Source: Chloroflexota bacterium (GTDB lineage: Bacteria > Chloroflexota > UBA11872). Taken from it: a DNA stretch of 35,781 nt. Location of the stretch: contig JAPPNP010000060.1 in the NCBI GenBank assembly GCA_028873795.1, positions 1 through 35,781 on the forward strand, read 5' to 3'. Made by a program: the position numbers and the translations under genes. The notes below the pieces were generated by a model that saw only the letters and a list, made by a program, of their open reading frames with translations, did not search any database and was not told where the DNA came from. Shown piece after piece: positions 9,851 through 35,650 of this stretch (the stretch's first letter is position 1; each line of letters starts with the position of its first letter).

Positions 9851-11176
9851 TTAGATTCCCGTCGCGCCGTCGTTGCCCGCTGCCGGCCCGGTCAGGGCCT
9901 CACGCAGCACGTCGCGCACGCCCTCGTGGGGCACACGGTCGAGGACCGCCTCGAAATAGCCCTCCACGATCAACTCTCGCGCCTGGGCGTGGGTCAGGCC
10001 GCGCGAGCACAGGTAGTAGAGGTGACTGGGCTCCAGCGTCGATGTCGTCGCGCCGTGCGTGCAGCGCACGTCATCGGCCATGATCTCCAGCCGCGGAATC
10101 GAGTCGGCGCGCGTGCCGCTGCTGAGCAGCAGGTTGCGGTTGTTCTGGTAGGCGTTGGTGCGTTGGGCCGCGGGATCCACCACGATCGTGCCGGCGTACA
10201 CCGAGCGGGCGCGACCGTCGAGCACCCCGGCAAACAGCAGATCGCTCGTGCCGTCCGTCGCCAGGTGGTCCTGGGTGGTGTGGTGATCCACGAACTGCCG
10301 GCTGCCAAGCCTGAACGCCCCGTTCAAGACCGCATTGGCTCCCGGCTCGACCAGGGTCGCCTCGACCCGCGCTTTGTGGAAGCGTCCGCCCACGGTCACG
10401 TTGGTGCTGGCGAGCGTGGCGTCGCGGCTCACGACGGCGCGCTGGGAGAGCACCGACCGCGCATCGAGCGCCAGGGCCTGAACGTGCGCATAGGTGAGGT
10501 GTGCGCCGGAAGCGGCAAACAGCTCGGTCGCGCCGTTGACGAGCACCGGCGATCCGGCGCCCGTGTCCGCCCACCACTCCACGATCGATGCCTGCGCCCC
10601 CTCGCCCAGCGACGCCAGCAGATGCGGCTGCCGCAGCGCCGCGTCACCTGAGGCGACCACCAGGATCGGCTGCGCCAGCGCCGCGCCGCGCGGCACGTGC
10701 ACCAACGCGCCGCCCTGCCACAGCGCCGCGTTGAGCGCTTGAAACTTGCCCTGCTCCGGGGCCACCGCGGTGGTGCTCAGGTTGTCGCGCACCAGTTCGG
10801 GCCGCGTCTGCGCGGCTTCCGCCAGATCCAGCGCGACCACGCCGGCGCTCCGGGCTTCTGGGCTGACGTCGACCACGTGCGCCCCGGCGGCGCTCATCAC
10901 CAGCGTGACGCTGGGGTCAAGGGCCGCAGTGGGAACCGTCGCCGGCACGCCGGCGACGCCGTCCAGCGGCGCAGCGGGCGTCAGCGACTCCCACTGCAGC
11001 CATCGCAGGTCCGTGCGTCGCCACTCCTCGTCGGTGCGTTCGGGGTTCGGCGTGGCCTCGTAGACATCCCACGCGGCTCTCCGGCGCGCGCGGAGCCAAT
11101 CCGGCTCCTGTTGCGCGTCCGCCAGGTCGTCGACGCTTTGGCGCGTGAGCCCAGGCGCCCGCGCGTCAATCGCCAT
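9851..11176 (-). CDS. sufD: Fe-S assembly scaffold subunit SufD
   Basis: A 441-residue SufD: a right-handed beta-helix protein that pairs with SufB and binds SufC ATPase in the SufBC2D scaffold. Family features are the N-terminal helical region (VYEATPNPERTDEEWRRTDLRWL), the repetitive strands of the core, and the C-terminal block (VRCTHGATTSTLEPSHLYYLCSRGLTHAQARELIVEGYFEAVLDRV). That block carries the conserved histidine of the CTHGAT motif and the SufC-binding helices. An AAGGA precedes the ATG. A 60-nt gap separates it from sufB, the longest gap in the operon. Confidence 0.95.
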   Translation of the reverse strand: MAIDARAPGLTRQSVDDLADAQQEPDWLRARRRAAWDVYEATPNPERTDEEWRRTDLRWLQWESLTPAAPLDGVAGVPATVPTAALDPSVTLVMSAAGAHVVDVSPEARSAGVVALDLAEAAQTRPELVRDNLSTTAVAPEQGKFQALNAALWQGGALVHVPRGAALAQPILVVASGDAALRQPHLLASLGEGAQASIVEWWADTGAGSPVLVNGATELFAASGAHLTYAHVQALALDARSVLSQRAVVSRDATLASTNVTVGGRFHKARVEATLVEPGANAVLNGAFRLGSRQFVDHHTTQDHLATDGTSDLLFAGVLDGRARSVYAGTIVVDPAAQRTNAYQNNRNLLLSSGTRADSIPRLEIMADDVRCTHGATTSTLEPSHLYYLCSRGLTHAQARELIVEGYFEAVLDRVPHEGVRDVLREALTGPAAGNDGATGI

Positions 11177-13606: not shown

Positions 13607-13660
13607 CGTCATTCCCGCGCAGAGCCTGCCCCGTACTCGATACGGTGCGGGGATCCACCC
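13607..13660 (+). repeat. family A repeat, filled form with inner hairpin
   Basis: Left arm ATTCCCGC at 13611-13618. The inner module GAGCCTGCCCCGTACTCG and onward occupies 13622-13645, then a decayed right arm (GCGGGGATCC). The inner stem is CCGTA...TACGG. Confidence 0.8.
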
Positions 13661-13770: not shown

Positions 13771-13800
13771 TCCGTCATTCCGGCGGAAGCCGGAATCCAG
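13771..13800 (+). repeat. family A palindromic repeat, empty form
   Basis: Arms ATTCCGGC and GCCGGAAT around GGAA, with the CGTC left flank and CCAG right flank. Forward orientation. Confidence 0.85.
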
Positions 13801-15261: not shown

Positions 15262-16512
15262 ATGAGTGGCATGCGCCTAACCCGACTCGGCGACACCGGC
15301 TGGTCGGTGGTCGCCCTGTTTGCCGCGTTTGCCTTCGTCTCGTTCAGCACGGCCGTCATCGGGCCTGTGCTGGGCCAGCTCGACGACGAATTCGGGGTGA
15401 GCTACGCGTCGTTGGGATTGATCGCCGGCATGCAGGCGCTCGGCCGCGGCGTGGCCATGATTCCAGCCGGCCGCGTGGCCGATCGGTACCCGCCGCGCCT
15501 GCTGGTGAGCCTCGGCGGGGTGCTCATGGTCGTTGGCTCCCTTGCGTCGGCGGCCGCGCCCGTCTATCCGATCCTGGTGTTCGGCACGGCCGTGATCGGC
15601 GTCTCGATGGCCTTGATCTTCACCGCCGGGATGGCCCATCTGATCCGCAGCGCGCCGACCGGAGAGCGCGGGCGCACGATGGGCCGCGCCATGGCCGGTT
15701 GGGGCCTCGGTTCGCTGCTCGCCCCGCTGGCGGCCGGGGCCCTCGCCAGCGCCTTCGGTTGGCGGTCGGTGTTTGTTCTAGCGGCCGTGCTCAGCGTGGC
15801 CGTGGTGCCGCTCGGGTTGAGCATTCGGGGCGCCTTGCCTCACGCGCCGGACCTCTCGCCGTCAGAACCGCAGCGTCGCTGGGCGCTGGGTCTGACCCGG
15901 CGTCTGGTCCCCGTCGTGGTCGTGAGCGCGCTCATCTGGGGCAGCGGCAGCGCCATCATGCGCCTGATACTGCCCCTATATGGCAGCGAAGGCGCGCAAC
16001 TGACCCCGGCGCTCATCGGCGCCTGGCTCAGTGTCTTCGCCGCGGTCACGTTCGGCCTCATGCTCGTGAGCGGCACCATTCTCGATCGGCTCGGACGCCT
16101 GACGGTGCTGCTGCTGGCCGCGATTCCTGGATTGCTCGGCGGATTCGTCCTGCTGCTGCCCATCGGCCTGGTGCCGTTCGTCCTCTTTGGCCTGACCAAG
16201 GCCGGCATCGGCTTCTCGATGCCCTTGATACCCGTCCTCGTCGCCGACCGATCCCCGCCCGCGCACGTTGGACGCTCCATGGGAGTCGTCCAATTCCTGA
16301 CGGATATCGTGAACCTGACGCTGCCGCTGGCGCTCGGCGCCCTGCTCGACGTGAGTGGCTTCGGCGCCGTGGGCATCTTCTTCATCGTCGCGTTTGCCGC
16401 CGCCGCGATCATCGGTTCGCGGGTCATCGCCGCCACGCCGCGCCGGCCCGCGGCGCCCGAGGCCGGCGCGACCGCACCAGCCGCCGATCCCGCCTCGCCG
16501 CCGGTCGGCTGA
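15262..16512 (+). CDS. MFS transporter
   Basis: A 416-residue major facilitator permease with about twelve hydrophobic segments. The first cytoplasmic loop has the motif A pattern GRVADRYPPRLLVSLGG, and the second half repeats it as GTILDRLGRLTVLL. The central loop around residues 185-210 is hydrophilic (APDLSPSEPQRR), and the C-terminal tail is Ala/Pro-rich. The drug or metabolite carried cannot be told. I take the ATG at 15262; a second ATG nine bases on (15271) is equally possible, and neither has a clear Shine-Dalgarno site. It is about 190 nt from kamA on the same strand, so export of a lysine product is conceivable but unsupported. Confidence 0.85.
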   Translation: MSGMRLTRLGDTGWSVVALFAAFAFVSFSTAVIGPVLGQLDDEFGVSYASLGLIAGMQALGRGVAMIPAGRVADRYPPRLLVSLGGVLMVVGSLASAAAPVYPILVFGTAVIGVSMALIFTAGMAHLIRSAPTGERGRTMGRAMAGWGLGSLLAPLAAGALASAFGWRSVFVLAAVLSVAVVPLGLSIRGALPHAPDLSPSEPQRRWALGLTRRLVPVVVVSALIWGSGSAIMRLILPLYGSEGAQLTPALIGAWLSVFAAVTFGLMLVSGTILDRLGRLTVLLLAAIPGLLGGFVLLLPIGLVPFVLFGLTKAGIGFSMPLIPVLVADRSPPAHVGRSMGVVQFLTDIVNLTLPLALGALLDVSGFGAVGIFFIVAFAAAAIIGSRVIAATPRRPAAPEAGATAPAADPASPPVG

Positions 16513-17120: not shown

Positions 17121-17246
17121 CTAGGCGTCGCTCCAATGGGAGACCCTTGCGCAACCCCTCCAGGGAAGATTGAAGACCAGGTCCGATCTCCTCTCCCTGG
17201 TAGGGATGTGCTCCTTCCCCTTAGCAGAGACCCTTGCGTAACCCTT

Positions 17247-17300
17247 CGTCATTCCCGCGAAGAGCCTGCCCCGTACTTGATACGGGGCGGGAATCCACCC
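17247..17300 (+). repeat. family A repeat, filled form with inner hairpin
   Basis: Outer arms ATTCCCGC (17251-17258) and GCGGGAAT (17287-17294) are split by the 24-nt module at 17262-17285, which itself pairs CCCCGTA with TACGGGG. Flanks on both sides match the empty copy at 21423. Confidence 0.9.
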
Positions 17301-17652
17301 CTCATTGAACGTGGGGGCGGAATGAATGCACCCGGTAATCCCCAAGCCCAGCTGGACCCTGCAGAGGTCTCTGGCAGGGGGAGGGTTGGGGTGGGCGTCA
17401 CCCGAGGCCTGGGCGTGGGATGTCGACCACCTGTGCCCCGGTTGCCAGTGGCGGGCCCGTCGCGCCCCGCCGCGGCGCGTAACCCTCCCGCCGCCGCTCG
17501 CCTGGAACCCCAATTCCCGTCGGCCTCGCCGCATCAGTCTCGCAATTCGGCTGGAAGTCGCCCCGTCACTATCGTAAGTATTGGTTGCCGAGGCGTTGAG
17601 AGCCGCGGCCGGACGAGCCCCAATGGCAGCGGCTGGTCCGGCGCCGCGACGG

Positions 17653-17658
17653 TATGCT
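17653..17658 (+). promoter_or_regulatory. possible -10 box of the methyltransferase gene
   Basis: TATGCT in an otherwise GC-rich stretch, about 60 nt upstream of the ATG at 17720. No clear -35 element is visible. Confidence 0.25.
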
Positions 17659-17719
17659 GCCGGGCGGACTAGCGCGGACTCCGCCGAGCTGCGCCAGGCT
17701 CACTGCGAAAGGGACGCCC

Positions 17720-18628
17720 ATGGTCGATCGCTCGGATGTCCGGGCCCCCGTGCGCCGCCTTGAGGACGGCGTGCTCCTATTCGACGGCGCCATGGGCTCG
17801 AACCTCAACGAGTACGAGGACCTCGATCGGGAAGCGCCCGAAGAAGACACGCTGCGCTACCCCGACCACGTCGCCAAGGTCTACGCCGGCTATGTGGCCG
17901 CCGGCGCCGACGTCATCTCGACCAACACCTTCGGCGGCAACTTGATCCGTCTTAAACGGGCCGGGCTGTTGGATCAGGCCGAATCACTCAATCGGCGCGC
18001 CGCCGAGATGGCGCGCGAGGCGGCGGGCGACAAGGCCTGGGTGGCGGGCGACATCGGCCAGAGCGGGGACTTTCTGGAACCCCTGGGCGAGATCACGCCC
18101 GACGAGATGTACGAGGCCTTCGCCGTCCAGGCCGAGCACCTCAAGGCCGGCGGCGCCGACCTGCTGCTGTGCGAGACCTTCAGCGATATCCAGGAAGTGC
18201 AAATCGCCATCCGGGCCGCCAAGGAAACCGGCCTGCCGGTATTCGCCACCATGACCTACGACATCAACCTGCACACCATGATGGGCGTCCCGCCGGCCGA
18301 TGGTCTCCGGGCCTGCGAGGAAGCCGGTGCCGACGTAGTCGGCTGCAACTGCGGCAACGGCCCCGAAGAGATGACGCAGGTTCTGCAGCAGATGGTGGAC
18401 GCCGGGCCGACGCGCCCGCTCATGGCGCAGTCGAATGCCGGCGTCCCCGAGCTCATCGCCGGCAAGGTCTGCTACACCTACCCGCCGGAGCGCATGGTCG
18501 ACTTCGCCGCGCAGTGGATCGACCTCGGCGTCCGCGTCGTCGGATCGTGCTGCGGCAGCACCAACCACACCACCACCCTGCTGCGCGAGATGATCGACGG
18601 GCGAAACCACGCGCCGAATGGGGCCTAG
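17720..18628 (+). CDS. homocysteine S-methyltransferase family protein
   Basis: A 302-residue protein equal to the homocysteine-binding TIM barrel found at the N-terminus of B12-dependent methionine synthase and in betaine-homocysteine methyltransferases. The zinc ligands that activate the thiol are all present: Cys211 in GCNCGNGPEEM and Cys277-Cys278 in GSCCGSTNHT. The opening FDGAMGSNL (21-29) and DVISTNTFGGN (64-74) are family blocks. The methyl donor is unknown, and no corrinoid or methyltetrahydrofolate domain is attached or adjacent. The start is the ATG at 17720, with AAAGGGA six bases upstream; the frame stays open to an earlier ATG at 17654, but that extension is not family-like. Confidence 0.88.
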   Translation: MVDRSDVRAPVRRLEDGVLLFDGAMGSNLNEYEDLDREAPEEDTLRYPDHVAKVYAGYVAAGADVISTNTFGGNLIRLKRAGLLDQAESLNRRAAEMAREAAGDKAWVAGDIGQSGDFLEPLGEITPDEMYEAFAVQAEHLKAGGADLLLCETFSDIQEVQIAIRAAKETGLPVFATMTYDINLHTMMGVPPADGLRACEEAGADVVGCNCGNGPEEMTQVLQQMVDAGPTRPLMAQSNAGVPELIAGKVCYTYPPERMVDFAAQWIDLGVRVVGSCCGSTNHTTTLLREMIDGRNHAPNGA

Positions 18629-18655
18629 TCTCCCTCTAGCCGCGCGCGCCGCCGT

Positions 18656-19402
18656 TCAGCAGCCCCTTGGGCGCTCGTTGACGAATGGAATCAGGCGCCT
18701 GATCAGGTTGTCGCGAAACTCCACGGTGATTTGCAGCCCGTTCACTAGCCCGAGGACGGCGTAAACGGCTTCACCGGGCGAGTCCCTGAAGCGATCGTCG
18801 GTGTACCCCGCGGTAAACGCGTCGAGCAGCCTGAACTGAGTTTCCCCGGCCAGCAGCGCCAGGCCGCGCAGCAGCCTGAACTGGTGGGCGAACAACGCCG
18901 GCCCCCCGTAGCTGCGCGGCGCCAAGGCGGGCGACAGGCGCAGCGCGTCATTCACCGCGCCGCTGGCCGCCATCAGGCGCACCGGATCGACCTGCCCCCG
19001 CCGCGCGCCGTCCGCCAGTAGGGCCAAGTGTCCGATCGCCGGGTCGAGGGCGAAGATTGCGTCGTCGACGCTCGTCAGAAACTGCAGCAGCTCGTACGAG
19101 GCGGCATGGTGTCCGAAAAAAGGGCACGTGCGCGCGAGCCGCATGGGCTCCGCCTCGACGATCGGGAATCCCACGGAGGATCGGCTCTCCACCGGAGCGG
19201 CCAGCGCCTCGGCGGAAATCGGCGGCGTCGCGGCGGCATCGGGCAGCGTCGCCTCGGTTGGCGACGGGCTGGCAGCTTGGGCCGCCGCGTTCGTCGCCTC
19301 GCTCCCCCGGCCCGCCACGAACGTGAGGACCACCACGGCTGTCATCGCCGCGAGGGCCACGGCTAGGGCGCCAATGCTGAGGATCCTGGAGCGTCCGCTC
19401 AT
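18656..19402 (-). CDS. membrane-anchored protein of unknown function
   Basis: A 248-residue protein starting MSGRSRILSIGALAVALAAM, a single N-terminal membrane helix (about 8-30) that could be an uncleaved signal anchor. A low-complexity Ala/Pro/Ser/Thr linker (about 33-75) follows, typical of proteins that reach across the cell envelope. The remaining 170 residues are helical (ASYELLQFLTSVDDAIFALD, AHQFRLLRGLALLAGE) with no motif that I know. A single cysteine is in RTCPFF and one is the last residue. An ATG eight codons earlier (19426) is possible. It converges with the methyltransferase gene and lies downstream of the gamma-glutamyltransferase gene on the same strand. Confidence 0.6.
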   Translation of the reverse strand: MSGRSRILSIGALAVALAAMTAVVVLTFVAGRGSEATNAAAQAASPSPTEATLPDAAATPPISAEALAAPVESRSSVGFPIVEAEPMRLARTCPFFGHHAASYELLQFLTSVDDAIFALDPAIGHLALLADGARRGQVDPVRLMAASGAVNDALRLSPALAPRSYGGPALFAHQFRLLRGLALLAGETQFRLLDAFTAGYTDDRFRDSPGEAVYAVLGLVNGLQITVEFRDNLIRRLIPFVNERPRGC

Positions 19403-19558
19403 GTCGCCGCACTCGGTGTCGTGCAACCGCCGCCGCCGCGTTCGAGCATGTCCGGAGACGACCTATCGGCGTGGGCGATCGGAGAATTCGTCAATGGCAA
19501 CACGCCACCAGCAGCCCATTTGGGCGATTGCCCCGCCGGAAGTATAGGGGCAGCGTGC

Positions 19559-21148
19559 CTACAGCCCGGCGGCGTATCCGTCCCGGCGCGGATCGGCCCC
19601 GCCGGTCAGCACACCCGTTGATGGGTCGCGAGCGACGCCCTGCATTCCCCCGACGTAGTTGGTGAATGCATCCAGCACCTTCACGTCGTGCCCACGACGG
19701 CCCAGCTCCTCGATCGTCTCCGGCCCGATCCGCGATTCGATACGCAGCGCCGTCCCATCGTCCAGGACCCCGCGAGGGTCCTCGATGGCCTGCTGCACGC
19801 CCAATCCGTAGTCGGCCCACTTCACAAACACCTGGGTCTGCGTTTGGCAAATGCCGTGGCCGCCCGGCGTGCCCAGCGCGAGCACCGGCTCGCCGTCGCG
19901 GGTCGTCACGCTCGGGGCGATCGGCAGCGACAACGGCGCGCCGGGGGACATGTAGTTCGGGCTGTCGGGATGCAACTCGCCCCAGTTCAGGAAGTTGTTG
20001 AGCACCACGCCCGTCCCCGGTACCGCGATGCCCGCGCCGAACGGCGACCCGAGGCTCTGCGTCACGCAGATGAGGTTGCCGTCCGCATCACCTACCGAGA
20101 GCGACGTCGTGTGCTCGCGCGACCCGCGGATACCCGACGTCGGCTCGCCGTAGAGCTCGGTCCGGGCGCAGATCGGCTCGCCCGACGCCAAGCGCTCGCG
20201 CAGCGCCGCCACCTCGGCCTCGCCGAGCATCTCGTCGATCCTTTCGCGCGAGGCGTTGGCGTTCAAAATCCGCTGCTCGGCGGCCAGCCGGATGGCCCGC
20301 AATACCACGTCGAGCTGCTCGATGCCGTTTCGCGGCAGCGCGGCGATATCGGTGCCCGCGATGATCCGCAGCGACTGCAACATCTGAAAACCCTCGGACT
20401 GCGGCGGCGGCGTGTGCACCCGCAGTCCGCGGTAGCTCGTCGCCACCGGCTCGTCCCAGCGCGGCTGCACCGCGGCCAGGTCATCCAGCGAGACGCTGCC
20501 CCCAAGGGCTCCCAATCGGTCCACCAGCTTTCGTGCGAGCTGCCCGCGGTGCAAGTCGTCCGGCCCGTCGGTCACCGCCGTCTCCAGCGTGTCCGCGAGA
20601 TCGGGCTGCCGCAGCACCCAGCCTGGCGCCGGGGCCTCGCCGTTGTCGGTGTAGATCGCCGACCAGGCCTCGTCCCCCGCACACACCTCCATCGACTCGT
20701 CGATGACGTAGGCGTTGAAATCCGTGATCGGATACCCGTTCCGCGCCAAATCGATCGCCGGCGCAAAGACCTCGCCGCGCGGGCGCCGTCCGTACTCGGC
20801 CAGCAATTCGCACCACCCGGCCAGGTTTCCGGGGGTTCCGACGCTGTGCGGTCCCCGCTTCAAGTCTGCGCGTGCCTTGGTGGTGGCGTCGTAGGTGCCG
20901 GGAACCGGCGGAATGAAGTCCAGCGTGCGAATCCGGCCCTCGCTCGCGACGTACAACGTGGCGACGCCCATGCCGGCCACGCCCGACATATAGGGCTCCA
21001 CAACGTTGAGCGCGGCCGTCGTGGCAACCGCGGCGTCGACGGCATTGCCGCCGGCCAGCAGCAGCCGCAGTCCGGCTTGCGTGGCCAAGGGGTGGGCGCT
21101 CGACACCACGCCCCGAATCGACGCGATCAGCGGGCGATGTCCGTGCAT
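19559..21148 (-). CDS. gamma-glutamyltransferase (Ntn-hydrolase) family protein
   Basis: A 529-residue gamma-glutamyltranspeptidase-type protein made as one chain that cuts itself before a threonine to become active. The nucleophile is Thr347 in SREHTTSLSVGDADGN; the usual histidine two positions later is serine. The early block SSAHPLATQAG then LLAGGNAVDAAVAT (about 16-44) and the late GTPGGHGICQ (about 431-440), with its glycine pair lining the gamma-glutamyl site, are standard. There is no signal peptide, unlike periplasmic E. coli Ggt, so it may work in the cytoplasm on glutathione-like or other gamma-glutamyl amides or a cephalosporin-type amide. An AGGGGA lies upstream of the ATG at 21148; an earlier ATG at 21178 is possible. 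Confidence 0.88.
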   Translation of the reverse strand: MHGHRPLIASIRGVVSSAHPLATQAGLRLLLAGGNAVDAAVATTAALNVVEPYMSGVAGMGVATLYVASEGRIRTLDFIPPVPGTYDATTKARADLKRGPHSVGTPGNLAGWCELLAEYGRRPRGEVFAPAIDLARNGYPITDFNAYVIDESMEVCAGDEAWSAIYTDNGEAPAPGWVLRQPDLADTLETAVTDGPDDLHRGQLARKLVDRLGALGGSVSLDDLAAVQPRWDEPVATSYRGLRVHTPPPQSEGFQMLQSLRIIAGTDIAALPRNGIEQLDVVLRAIRLAAEQRILNANASRERIDEMLGEAEVAALRERLASGEPICARTELYGEPTSGIRGSREHTTSLSVGDADGNLICVTQSLGSPFGAGIAVPGTGVVLNNFLNWGELHPDSPNYMSPGAPLSLPIAPSVTTRDGEPVLALGTPGGHGICQTQTQVFVKWADYGLGVQQAIEDPRGVLDDGTALRIESRIGPETIEELGRRGHDVKVLDAFTNYVGGMQGVARDPSTGVLTGGADPRRDGYAAGL

Positions 21149-21234
21149 GCGATCCCCTGCGGCCGTCGGGCGGCGCATTGTGTCACACGCCGGATTTCAG
21201 GCCGTCAGGCAGCCAGTCCTCATTCCCGCCGTCC

Positions 21235-21262
21235 GTCATTCCGGCGGAAGCCGGAATCCAGC
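21235..21262 (+). repeat. family A palindromic repeat, empty form
   Basis: Arms ATTCCGGC and GCCGGAAT around GGAA. A half copy (CATTCCCGCC) lies just before it at 21221-21230. Confidence 0.85.
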
Positions 21263-21313
21263 CCGACCGAATCCCGACACCCGCCCGTCGCGTGGTACTT
21301 CGCCGAACGAGTC

Positions 21314-21342
21314 TTCATTCGAGCGAAGCGAGAAACCTAAAG
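21314..21342 (+). repeat. family B repeat, diverged
   Basis: TTCATTCGAGCGAAGCGAG then AAACCTAAAG. Forward orientation, with several changes from consensus. Confidence 0.6.
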
Positions 21343-21422
21343 AGCCGGCAATTGGGCGCATCCCCGCAGGCGCCGCGCACGTCCGGTGCCCTCTCCAACA
21401 GGAGGCGTGTGCGTAACCCTTC

Positions 21423-21450
21423 GTCATTCCCGCGAAGGCGGGAATCCACC
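21423..21450 (+). repeat. family A repeat, empty form matching the filled copy at 17247
   Basis: ATTCCCGCGAAGGCGGGAAT with no insert. The left flank GCGTAACCCTTCGTC and right flank CCACCCCTCATTGAAC are the same as around the filled copy at 17247-17300. Confidence 0.9.
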
Positions 21451-21563: not shown

Positions 21564-21613
21564 CATTCCCGCGAAAAGACTGCCCCATACTCGATACGCG
21601 GCGGGAATCCACC
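21564..21613 (+). repeat. family A repeat, filled form, diverged module
   Basis: Outer arms ATTCCCGC and GCGGGAAT. The inner module at 21576-21599 has several changes and a weakened stem (CCCCATA/TACGCGG). Confidence 0.75.
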
Positions 21614-32275: not shown

Positions 32276-32340
32276 CCCCTCTCCCTGCAAGGGAGAGGGC
32301 TAGAGCCTGCCCCGTACCTGAAACGGGGGAGAGGGTCATC
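32276..32340 (+). repeat. family C hairpin followed by an inner-hairpin module
   Basis: Arms CCCTCTCCCT (32277-32286) and AGGGAGAGGG (32290-32299). The module GAGCCTGCCCCGTACCTG and onward, to 32326, follows directly, and then GAGAGGG resumes. The module's own stem is CCCCGT/ACGGGG. Here the module sits outside family A. Confidence 0.8.
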
Positions 32341-32430: not shown

Positions 32431-32458
32431 GTCATTCCGGCGAAAGCCGGAATCCAGG
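32431..32458 (+). repeat. family A palindromic repeat, empty form
   Basis: ATTCCGGCGAAAGCCGGAAT with GTC left flank and CCAGG right flank. Forward orientation. Confidence 0.85.
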
Positions 32459-32550: not shown

Positions 32551-32590
32551 TCCCCTCTCCCTTGATGGGAGAGGGTTAGGGTGAGGGGGA
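32551..32590 (+). repeat. family C hairpin repeat
   Basis: Arms CCCTCTCCC (32553-32561) and GGGAGAGGG (32567-32575), loop TTGAT, tail TTAGGGTGAGGGGG. It is the best match to the family pattern in the window. Confidence 0.85.
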
Positions 32591-32683: not shown

Positions 32684-32733
32684 TCATTCCCGCGAAGAGC
32701 CTGCCCTGTACTCGATACGGGGCGGGAATCCAC
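32684..32733 (+). repeat. family A repeat, filled form
   Basis: Left arm ATTCCCGC, module at 32697-32720 (stem CCCTGTA/TACGGGG), right arm GCGGGAAT. Confidence 0.85.
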
Positions 32734-32763: not shown

Positions 32764-32815
32764 GTCATTCCAGCGAAAAGCCTGCCCCGTACTTGATACG
32801 GGGCCGGAATCCAGT
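32764..32815 (+). repeat. family A repeat, filled form
   Basis: Left arm ATTCCAGC, module at 32778-32801 (stem CCCCGTA/TACGGGG), right arm GCCGGAAT. It lies 30 nt after the previous filled copy, in the same orientation. Confidence 0.85.
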
Positions 32816-35600: not shown

Positions 35601-35650
35601 TCATTCCGGCGAAGAGCCTGCCCCGTACTCGATACAGGACCGGAGTCCAG
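35601..35650 (+). repeat. family A repeat, filled form, decayed
   Basis: Left arm ATTCCGGC, module at 35614-35637 with a damaged stem (CCCCGTA/TACAGGA), right arm ACCGGAGT. Confidence 0.75.

Follow-up and report, generated by a model that had tools for sequence, protein, structure and literature searches.

A 24-nt AGCCTG-tagged module, present or absent at precise sites within CGTC REPs and other palindromic repeats of Chloroflexota

Filled and empty REPs in the window

The window is a stretch of 35,781 nt (contig JAPPNP010000060.1, assembly GCA_028873795.1) from G000, a 3.18-Mb draft Chloroflexota MAG that is 96.6% complete. The Chloroflexota that bear the module described here are presumably associated with sponges, an assumption based on isolate names and on knowledge of the group. 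All features given below lie on the forward strand. Positions 17247-17297 are occupied by a palindromic repeat with the layout CGTC-ATTCCCGC-GAAG-AGCCTGCCCCGTACTTGATACGGG-GCGGGAAT-CCA, in which the 24-nt AGCCTGCCCCGTACTTGATACGGG is the module. The same CGTC-type repeat is found at 21422-21448 as an identical sequence from which these 24 nt are missing, and this copy constitutes a paralogous empty site. A sequence-only reading of this DNA had noted two copies, at 17247 and 21423, with common left and right flanks and a difference of 24 nt; all of this is confirmed in the window sequence, and the common flanks extend beyond the limits first given. The limits of the block itself hold only to within one base, as the proposed 17262-17285 (GAGCC...) can equally be read as 17263-17286 (AGCC...). 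The latter frame is adopted because a start at AGCC suits every host. Read in this way, the module comprises an AGCCTG tag and a 7-bp hairpin, closed by the G of the host at 17287.

The outer repeat is a CGTC REP, a known kind of element (Di Nocera et al., 2013; PMC3733652). It has the CGTC tag, an 8-bp stem starting with AT, a 4-nt loop, and the CCA tail of that family, which includes the neisserial dRS3, and it is present in more than 100 copies. As far as the available part of that source goes, CGTC REPs are intergenic, with no dedicated transposase known, as is the outer host here; the criterion that no dedicated RAYT be flanked by the repeats is met, as no Y1_Tnp was found in seven genomes. 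The family is listed in Table 1 of the same source for five phyla, without Chloroflexi, and with loops of 4-5 nt, so that on this partial evidence the element is new for Chloroflexota. The genome contains 110 exact outer palindromes. Among the 100 of these that are listed, empty copies measure 22 nt, those filled by the 24-nt module 46 nt, and those bearing another insert 44 nt, the exceptions being two matches that span neighbouring tandem copies.

All six further copies of the block reported for the window (13622, 21576, 32303, 32697, 32778, and 35614) exist, and only three of them are set in the C-type outer palindrome seen at 17247. These are the filled REPs at 13610-13656 (module 13623-13646), 21564-21610 (degenerate module at 21577-21600), and 32685-32731 (module 32698-32721). 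The copies at 32778 and 35614 have as host the G-type REP (ATTCCGGC/GCCGGAAT), as a G-type-like unit at 32766-32812 (module 32779-32802) and a unit with a degenerate 3' arm at 35602-35648 (module 35615-35638). The copy at 32303 is found within an unrelated, non-REP repeat of the GGGAGAGGGCTAG^GGTGAGGG type (GGGAGAGGGCTAG^GG, with ^ marking the junction), the host H4, where the module at 32304-32327 is flanked as CCCTCTCCC..GGGAGAGGGCTAG ^ GGAGAGGG. Three kinds of host are therefore represented within the window alone. Empty units of each also occur there: a C-type REP at 1544-1566, G-type REPs at 13776-13798 and 32433-32455, and H4 at 32567-32587 (GGGAGAGGGTTAGGGTGAGGG).

The filled REP at 17247 is carried by a TIR element of about 146 bp (AGAGACC..GGTCTCT) at 17228-17373, which is exactly absent at the orthologous place in the relative G001; a GCAG target duplication is possible. 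This element belongs to a MITE-like family of about 150 bp with the TIR GGAGACC(C/T)TTGCG..TGCAAAGGTCTCC, which carries the C-type REP, has further copies on L047 (about 9990-10165 and 15590-15760), and itself lies within GGGGGAAGG-type palindromes. The units at 17247 and 21423 each lie in a TIR element of about 150 bp and hence represent two paralogues of a single larger repeat. Inserts of 38-39 nt that recur in the loops of C-type REPs consist of the left end of the MITE and the left half of the REP (GGGAGACCTTTGCGTAACCCTTCGTCATTCCCGCGGAG), and are apparently a third step of nesting. The intergenic repeats are thus nests of repeat, TIR element, REP, and module, and caution is needed, as length variants should not be taken for separate families.

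Hosts, sequence family, and distribution of the module

The block is not tied to this one outer palindrome but occurs in at least nine unrelated palindromic repeats, always in a single orientation, after AG (sometimes AA) and before G. These hosts include the C-type and G-type CGTC REPs, GTCACCCCGGCGAAG^GCCGGGGTC, H4 (GGGAGAGGG(C/T)TAG^GGTGAGG), H5 (TTCGACAAGCTCAG^GGCGAACGG), GTAG^GGGCGGGTCTCAGACCCGCCC, GTAG^GGGCGGTTCGCGAACCGCCC, GGGGGAAGGGCAG^GATGGGGGTC, and H9 (GTTCGACAG^GCTCACCACGAA). Empty copies are known for every host, and their sequence is that of the two flanks joined. AG stands at the left junction only, and the right side starts with G.

A census was made with host flanks as the only query, allowing any gap of up to 30-40 nt, and the gaps inside the hosts were nearly all 0 or 24. 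C-type REPs were empty in 90 cases, with 24 additional nt in 39 and 22 in 7, while G-type REPs gave 54 empty and 18 with 24 nt. H5 (TTCGACA(A/G)GCTCAG^GGCGAACG) had a gap of 0 in 91 copies and of 24 in 20, with two more copies in which the gap spans a second host unit. The counts for H4 were 42 with gap 0 and 11 with gap 24, plus single gaps of 23, 25, and 12; those for H9 were 20 and 5, with one gap of 23; and the GTCACCCCGG-type host had six empty copies and six with a 24-nt gap. A few other gap lengths were found in the two GTAG-repeat hosts, which have short flanks, as expected from a loose left search pattern. Microhomology-mediated template switching in replication, by which the hairpin would be copied from one repeat to another, is an unlikely source of this pattern. 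The junctions do show sequence shared by hosts and module, AG on the left and G or GG on the right, but homology of 2-3 nt cannot account for a length of exactly 24 nt that recurs, with few exceptions, in over 100 inserts across nine hosts, and the census contains no ragged or longer donor pieces.

Hybrid units are also found, in which the left half of one host and the module are followed by the right half of another host or by a MITE end (L093, L090 at 166 and 8413, L135, L108, and L048 at 504). Recombination at or near the module therefore occurs as well.

The module has the consensus AGCCTGCCCCGTAC(T/C)(T/C)GATACGGG and consists of a conserved 5' tag, AGCCTG, and an 18-nt core that usually forms a hairpin. 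When 24-nt inserts were gathered by host flanks alone, 100 of 100 belonged to this family; the tag was intact in 86, the remainder deviated from it by one or two letters, and position 6 was G in all 100. Two types of core occur, GTAC..GATAC (also GGAC..GATCC) and TGAG..CCGAAGG, and the stems show compensating types (GTA/TAC, GGA/TCC, and GAG/CGA). Among distinct variants, 230 of 259 cells in the stem columns are paired, compared with 219 in shuffles, and none of 2000 shuffles reached 230. Folded as DNA, the empty REP has an energy of -8.9, the filled REP -13.1, and the module alone -7.4 kcal/mol. A strong hairpin is not universal. Because one core type, AGCCTGTCCTGAGCCTGCCGAAGG, folds poorly, the tag and length must be considered better conserved than the hairpin. 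The module ends (AGCC../..GGG) contain no terminal inverted repeats. A second type of module, of 22 nt (GCCTGTCCCCGCGCAGGCGGGGA) and with a core like that of the CGTC REP, was observed at L059 3138-3182, L055 401-445, and L032 13685; inserts of this type have most of the AGCCTG tag in common with the 24-nt module. A looser search pattern for the block returned only coding noise and was discarded.

Exact full modules number 53 in the 3.18-Mb genome, with none for a reversed-pattern control, and chance is excluded on this basis. The six genomes of the genus (G000-G005) contain 53, 23, 25, 60, 12, and 8 exact GTA-type modules, 13 genomes of a sister genus contain none, and eight genomes from two other families of the class have 1 to 44 each. 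None were found in the remaining genomes of the 101-genome sample, nor was the reversed pattern. An identical module sequence is thus distributed patchily over three families of the class. A pattern left open at four stem positions finds matches in the sister genus as well, and in a single distant genome. A sharp contrast was observed between the genus, with its GTA/TAC stems, and the sister genus (G006-G018), in which only other stems occur; this suggests replacement or horizontal arrival.

Beyond these genomes, viral contigs contain 62 stretches that match the module pattern, compared with 11 for the reversed pattern, mostly of GGA/TCC types. Some lie within H4, which in viral contigs has a gap of 0 in twelve copies, 24 in two, and 5 in one; a GTGGACACCGG palindrome is found twice empty and once filled. 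For a prophage-associated gene in these contigs only filled alleles, and no empty one, were found. In the diverse viral contigs L206, L209, L214, L218, L219, and L232, the pair AGCCTGCCCCGGAC..GATCCGGG occupies one and the same position of what appears to be a conserved phage coding region, through either ancient insertion or coincidence. The module pattern is present in ten plasmids, mainly of Alphaproteobacteria, and no plasmid matched when the filled C-type REP was the query. In Sinorhizobium (Rhizobiales) the module lies inside an IS481 transposase gene; related IS481 copies on plasmids are uninterrupted, and the junction is only nearly precise. The module is absent from 5,426 E. coli genomes.

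Filled and empty states at orthologous sites

The sequence-only reading had inferred precise gain or loss of one small palindrome without target duplication, and would have failed if orthologous loci never differed by the block alone. Orthologous loci whose sole difference is the module do exist, and together with the unbiased gap censuses they demonstrate precise gain or loss. The best pair, locus E, is filled in G000 (C52) and empty in G005 (C9). The local difference is exactly 24 nt, with more than 120 nt identical on either side and 95.5% identity over 2.8 kb. About five further clean pairs are known. G005 is empty at three loci that are filled in G001 and at one that is filled in G003, the flanks of these four showing 85-94% similarity across hundreds of bases. 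The last of them also involves another 24-nt module bearing the tag of the first (AGCCTGTCCTGAGCCTGCCGAAGG) and only some tens of bases distant from it, which G005 has and G003 lacks. Neither a target duplication nor a footprint is visible at the orthologous empty sites.

An automatic survey of site-by-genome pairs scored 12 as empty, 6 as filled, and 61 as lacking the host. Of the 12, the pairs named in this section were accepted and those in rearranged surroundings were left out, and three REP candidates (G004 L174, G004 L177, and G005 L185, each compared with G000) were dropped for this reason. The locus in the window itself yields no proof: four relatives are without the unit, and the pair with the fifth, whose intergene contains an empty unit but at a different point, was not used. 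A stretch of another contig offered six filled sites; the orthologous intergenes of five had no host, and for the sixth no anchors were obtained. The relatives are only 88-94% identical and intergenic repeats turn over fast, so that the majority of sites cannot be compared.

The direction of change is weakly supported. At loci A-C it cannot be polarised because the other genomes lack the host repeat. In favour of insertion rather than loss, a G-type REP site that is filled in G001 lacks the module in G000 as well as in G005, although its wider intergene has diverged. Palindromes are prone to deletion, and filled sites conserved in G004 and G005 were also found; both would fit a history in which all ancestral repeats were filled and precise replication slippage or hairpin excision has since removed the module. 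That loss alone accounts for the data is nevertheless very improbable. Besides the G-type REP site, nine unrelated hosts cannot all have originated with the same 24 nt, in the sister genus H4 hosts occur empty and exact GTA-type modules are lacking, and slippage would find direct repeats of no more than 1-2 nt at the ends.

A second outcome that would have refuted the initial proposal, in which filled and empty forms are separate old lineages, is not borne out either. In a tree built, with the module removed, from 55 empty and 19 filled C-type REPs borne by MITEs (74 in all), a single filled clade is rejected (p-AU 0.0013). Branch support is low. The filled state changes 16 times on this tree, compared with a mean of 17.1 in shuffles, and 146 of 500 shuffles were as low. 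The scatter could be explained by gene conversion too. One may suppose that the module entered each of some nine host families once, and that filled copies then spread and were scattered by ectopic gene conversion with no ongoing transposition. This account is plausible enough to be retained, although we judge it rather less likely than not to be the whole explanation. Each host is filled at one position only, and hybrid units that join a REP left half and the module to the right half of another host (L093, L090, and L135) are in keeping with it. Against it, locus E shows no co-converted marker within its identical flanks, loci A-C retain their own host variants beside the module, and at least nine independent entries would still require a precise insertion process. 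Ectopic gene conversion probably does aid spread of the module among copies of one host family.

A mobile-like unit and its known relatives

The reading we consider likely is that the block is an independent, mobile-like 24-nt module, subject to site-specific gain and precise excision, probably in single-stranded form and by means of an unidentified strand-transfer enzyme. The mechanism is inferred, and no insertion event has been seen experimentally. In outline, the module would be gained through site-specific insertion and lost through precise excision. The moving form may most likely be single-stranded, folded on the lagging or another exposed strand, and the putative enzyme would read the tag and hairpin and join the ends at AG^G. 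Such a mode would resemble that of one-hairpin IS200/IS605 ends and of RAYT-moved REPs, but no Y1 transposase was found in these genomes.

The sequence-only reading had suggested looking for a RAYT-like enzyme. None emerged: no match to Y1_Tnp (PF01797), the only candidate enzyme family examined, was found in the window genome, as far as this draft is complete (96.6%), and its six relatives (G000-G006), in searches whose positive controls matched. This weighs against transposition of the RAYT or IS200/IS605 (Y1 HUH) type, as does a tag that is AGCCTG and not GTAG, and we regard such transposition as quite unlikely even though insertion 3' of a motif without duplication, the single orientation, and the 5'-tagged hairpin match the anatomy described for these systems (PMC6006769). 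Like the hairpin ends of IS200/IS605 elements, the module inserts 3' of a short motif in a fixed orientation, with no target duplication and a precise empty site; unlike them it has only 24 nt, one hairpin, and no transposase that could be found. Insertion of this kind is a behaviour and not proof of kinship. GTAG REPs and REPINs, which are moved by RAYTs, likewise have a short hairpin with an unpaired 5' tag, high copy number, and intergenic location. Their tag is different, however, and the present module inserts within other repeats in genomes where no Y1 transposase gene was found.

By its tag, the module stands outside both REP superfamilies; it can be counted among small tagged mobile palindromes, with a real chance that it is something more. 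It does not meet the test of the GTAG tag for the GTAG REP/RAYT system, and with neither a CGTC tag nor a CCA tail it fails the tag and tail test for CGTC REPs. The available part of the account of CGTC REPs mentions no 24-nt AGCCTG module in the loop, no precise filled and empty pairs, and no such module in other hosts (PMC3733652). MITEs are similarly small and non-autonomous, and a family of them with the TIR GGAGACC bears the REP here, but the module differs from them in having neither TIRs at its ends nor a target duplication. The GC clusters of yeast mitochondria are also tiny palindromes with empty/filled polymorphism, an AG insertion site, palindrome mergers, and an unknown mechanism. 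These are organellar and flanked on both sides by duplicated AG or ACT, as in GC42, in contrast to the module, which is chromosomal, bacterial, and without duplication (PMC4478555). Searches of open-access full text returned no description of an AGCCTG-tagged nested module, an absence that is not thereby proven, and nothing relevant for the core sequences.

A broader proposal, for which the case falls somewhat short of even, is that the module represents a cross-phylum class of minimal mobile DNA, of about 24 nt, AGCCTG-tagged and with an interchangeable hairpin core, which transposes precisely into the AG^G of palindromes by an unknown machine that possibly also moves the transposase-less CGTC REPs. 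The boundaries and movement of CGTC REPs have previously been a matter of guesswork. In the available part of the published account these REPs are without a dedicated transposase (PMC3733652). The nested filled and empty pairs show exactly where a 24-nt mobile-like unit begins and ends, how it is oriented, and what its target is, and the orthologous pairs provide ready substrates for a test. If the module truly transposes, it would be among the smallest such units described.
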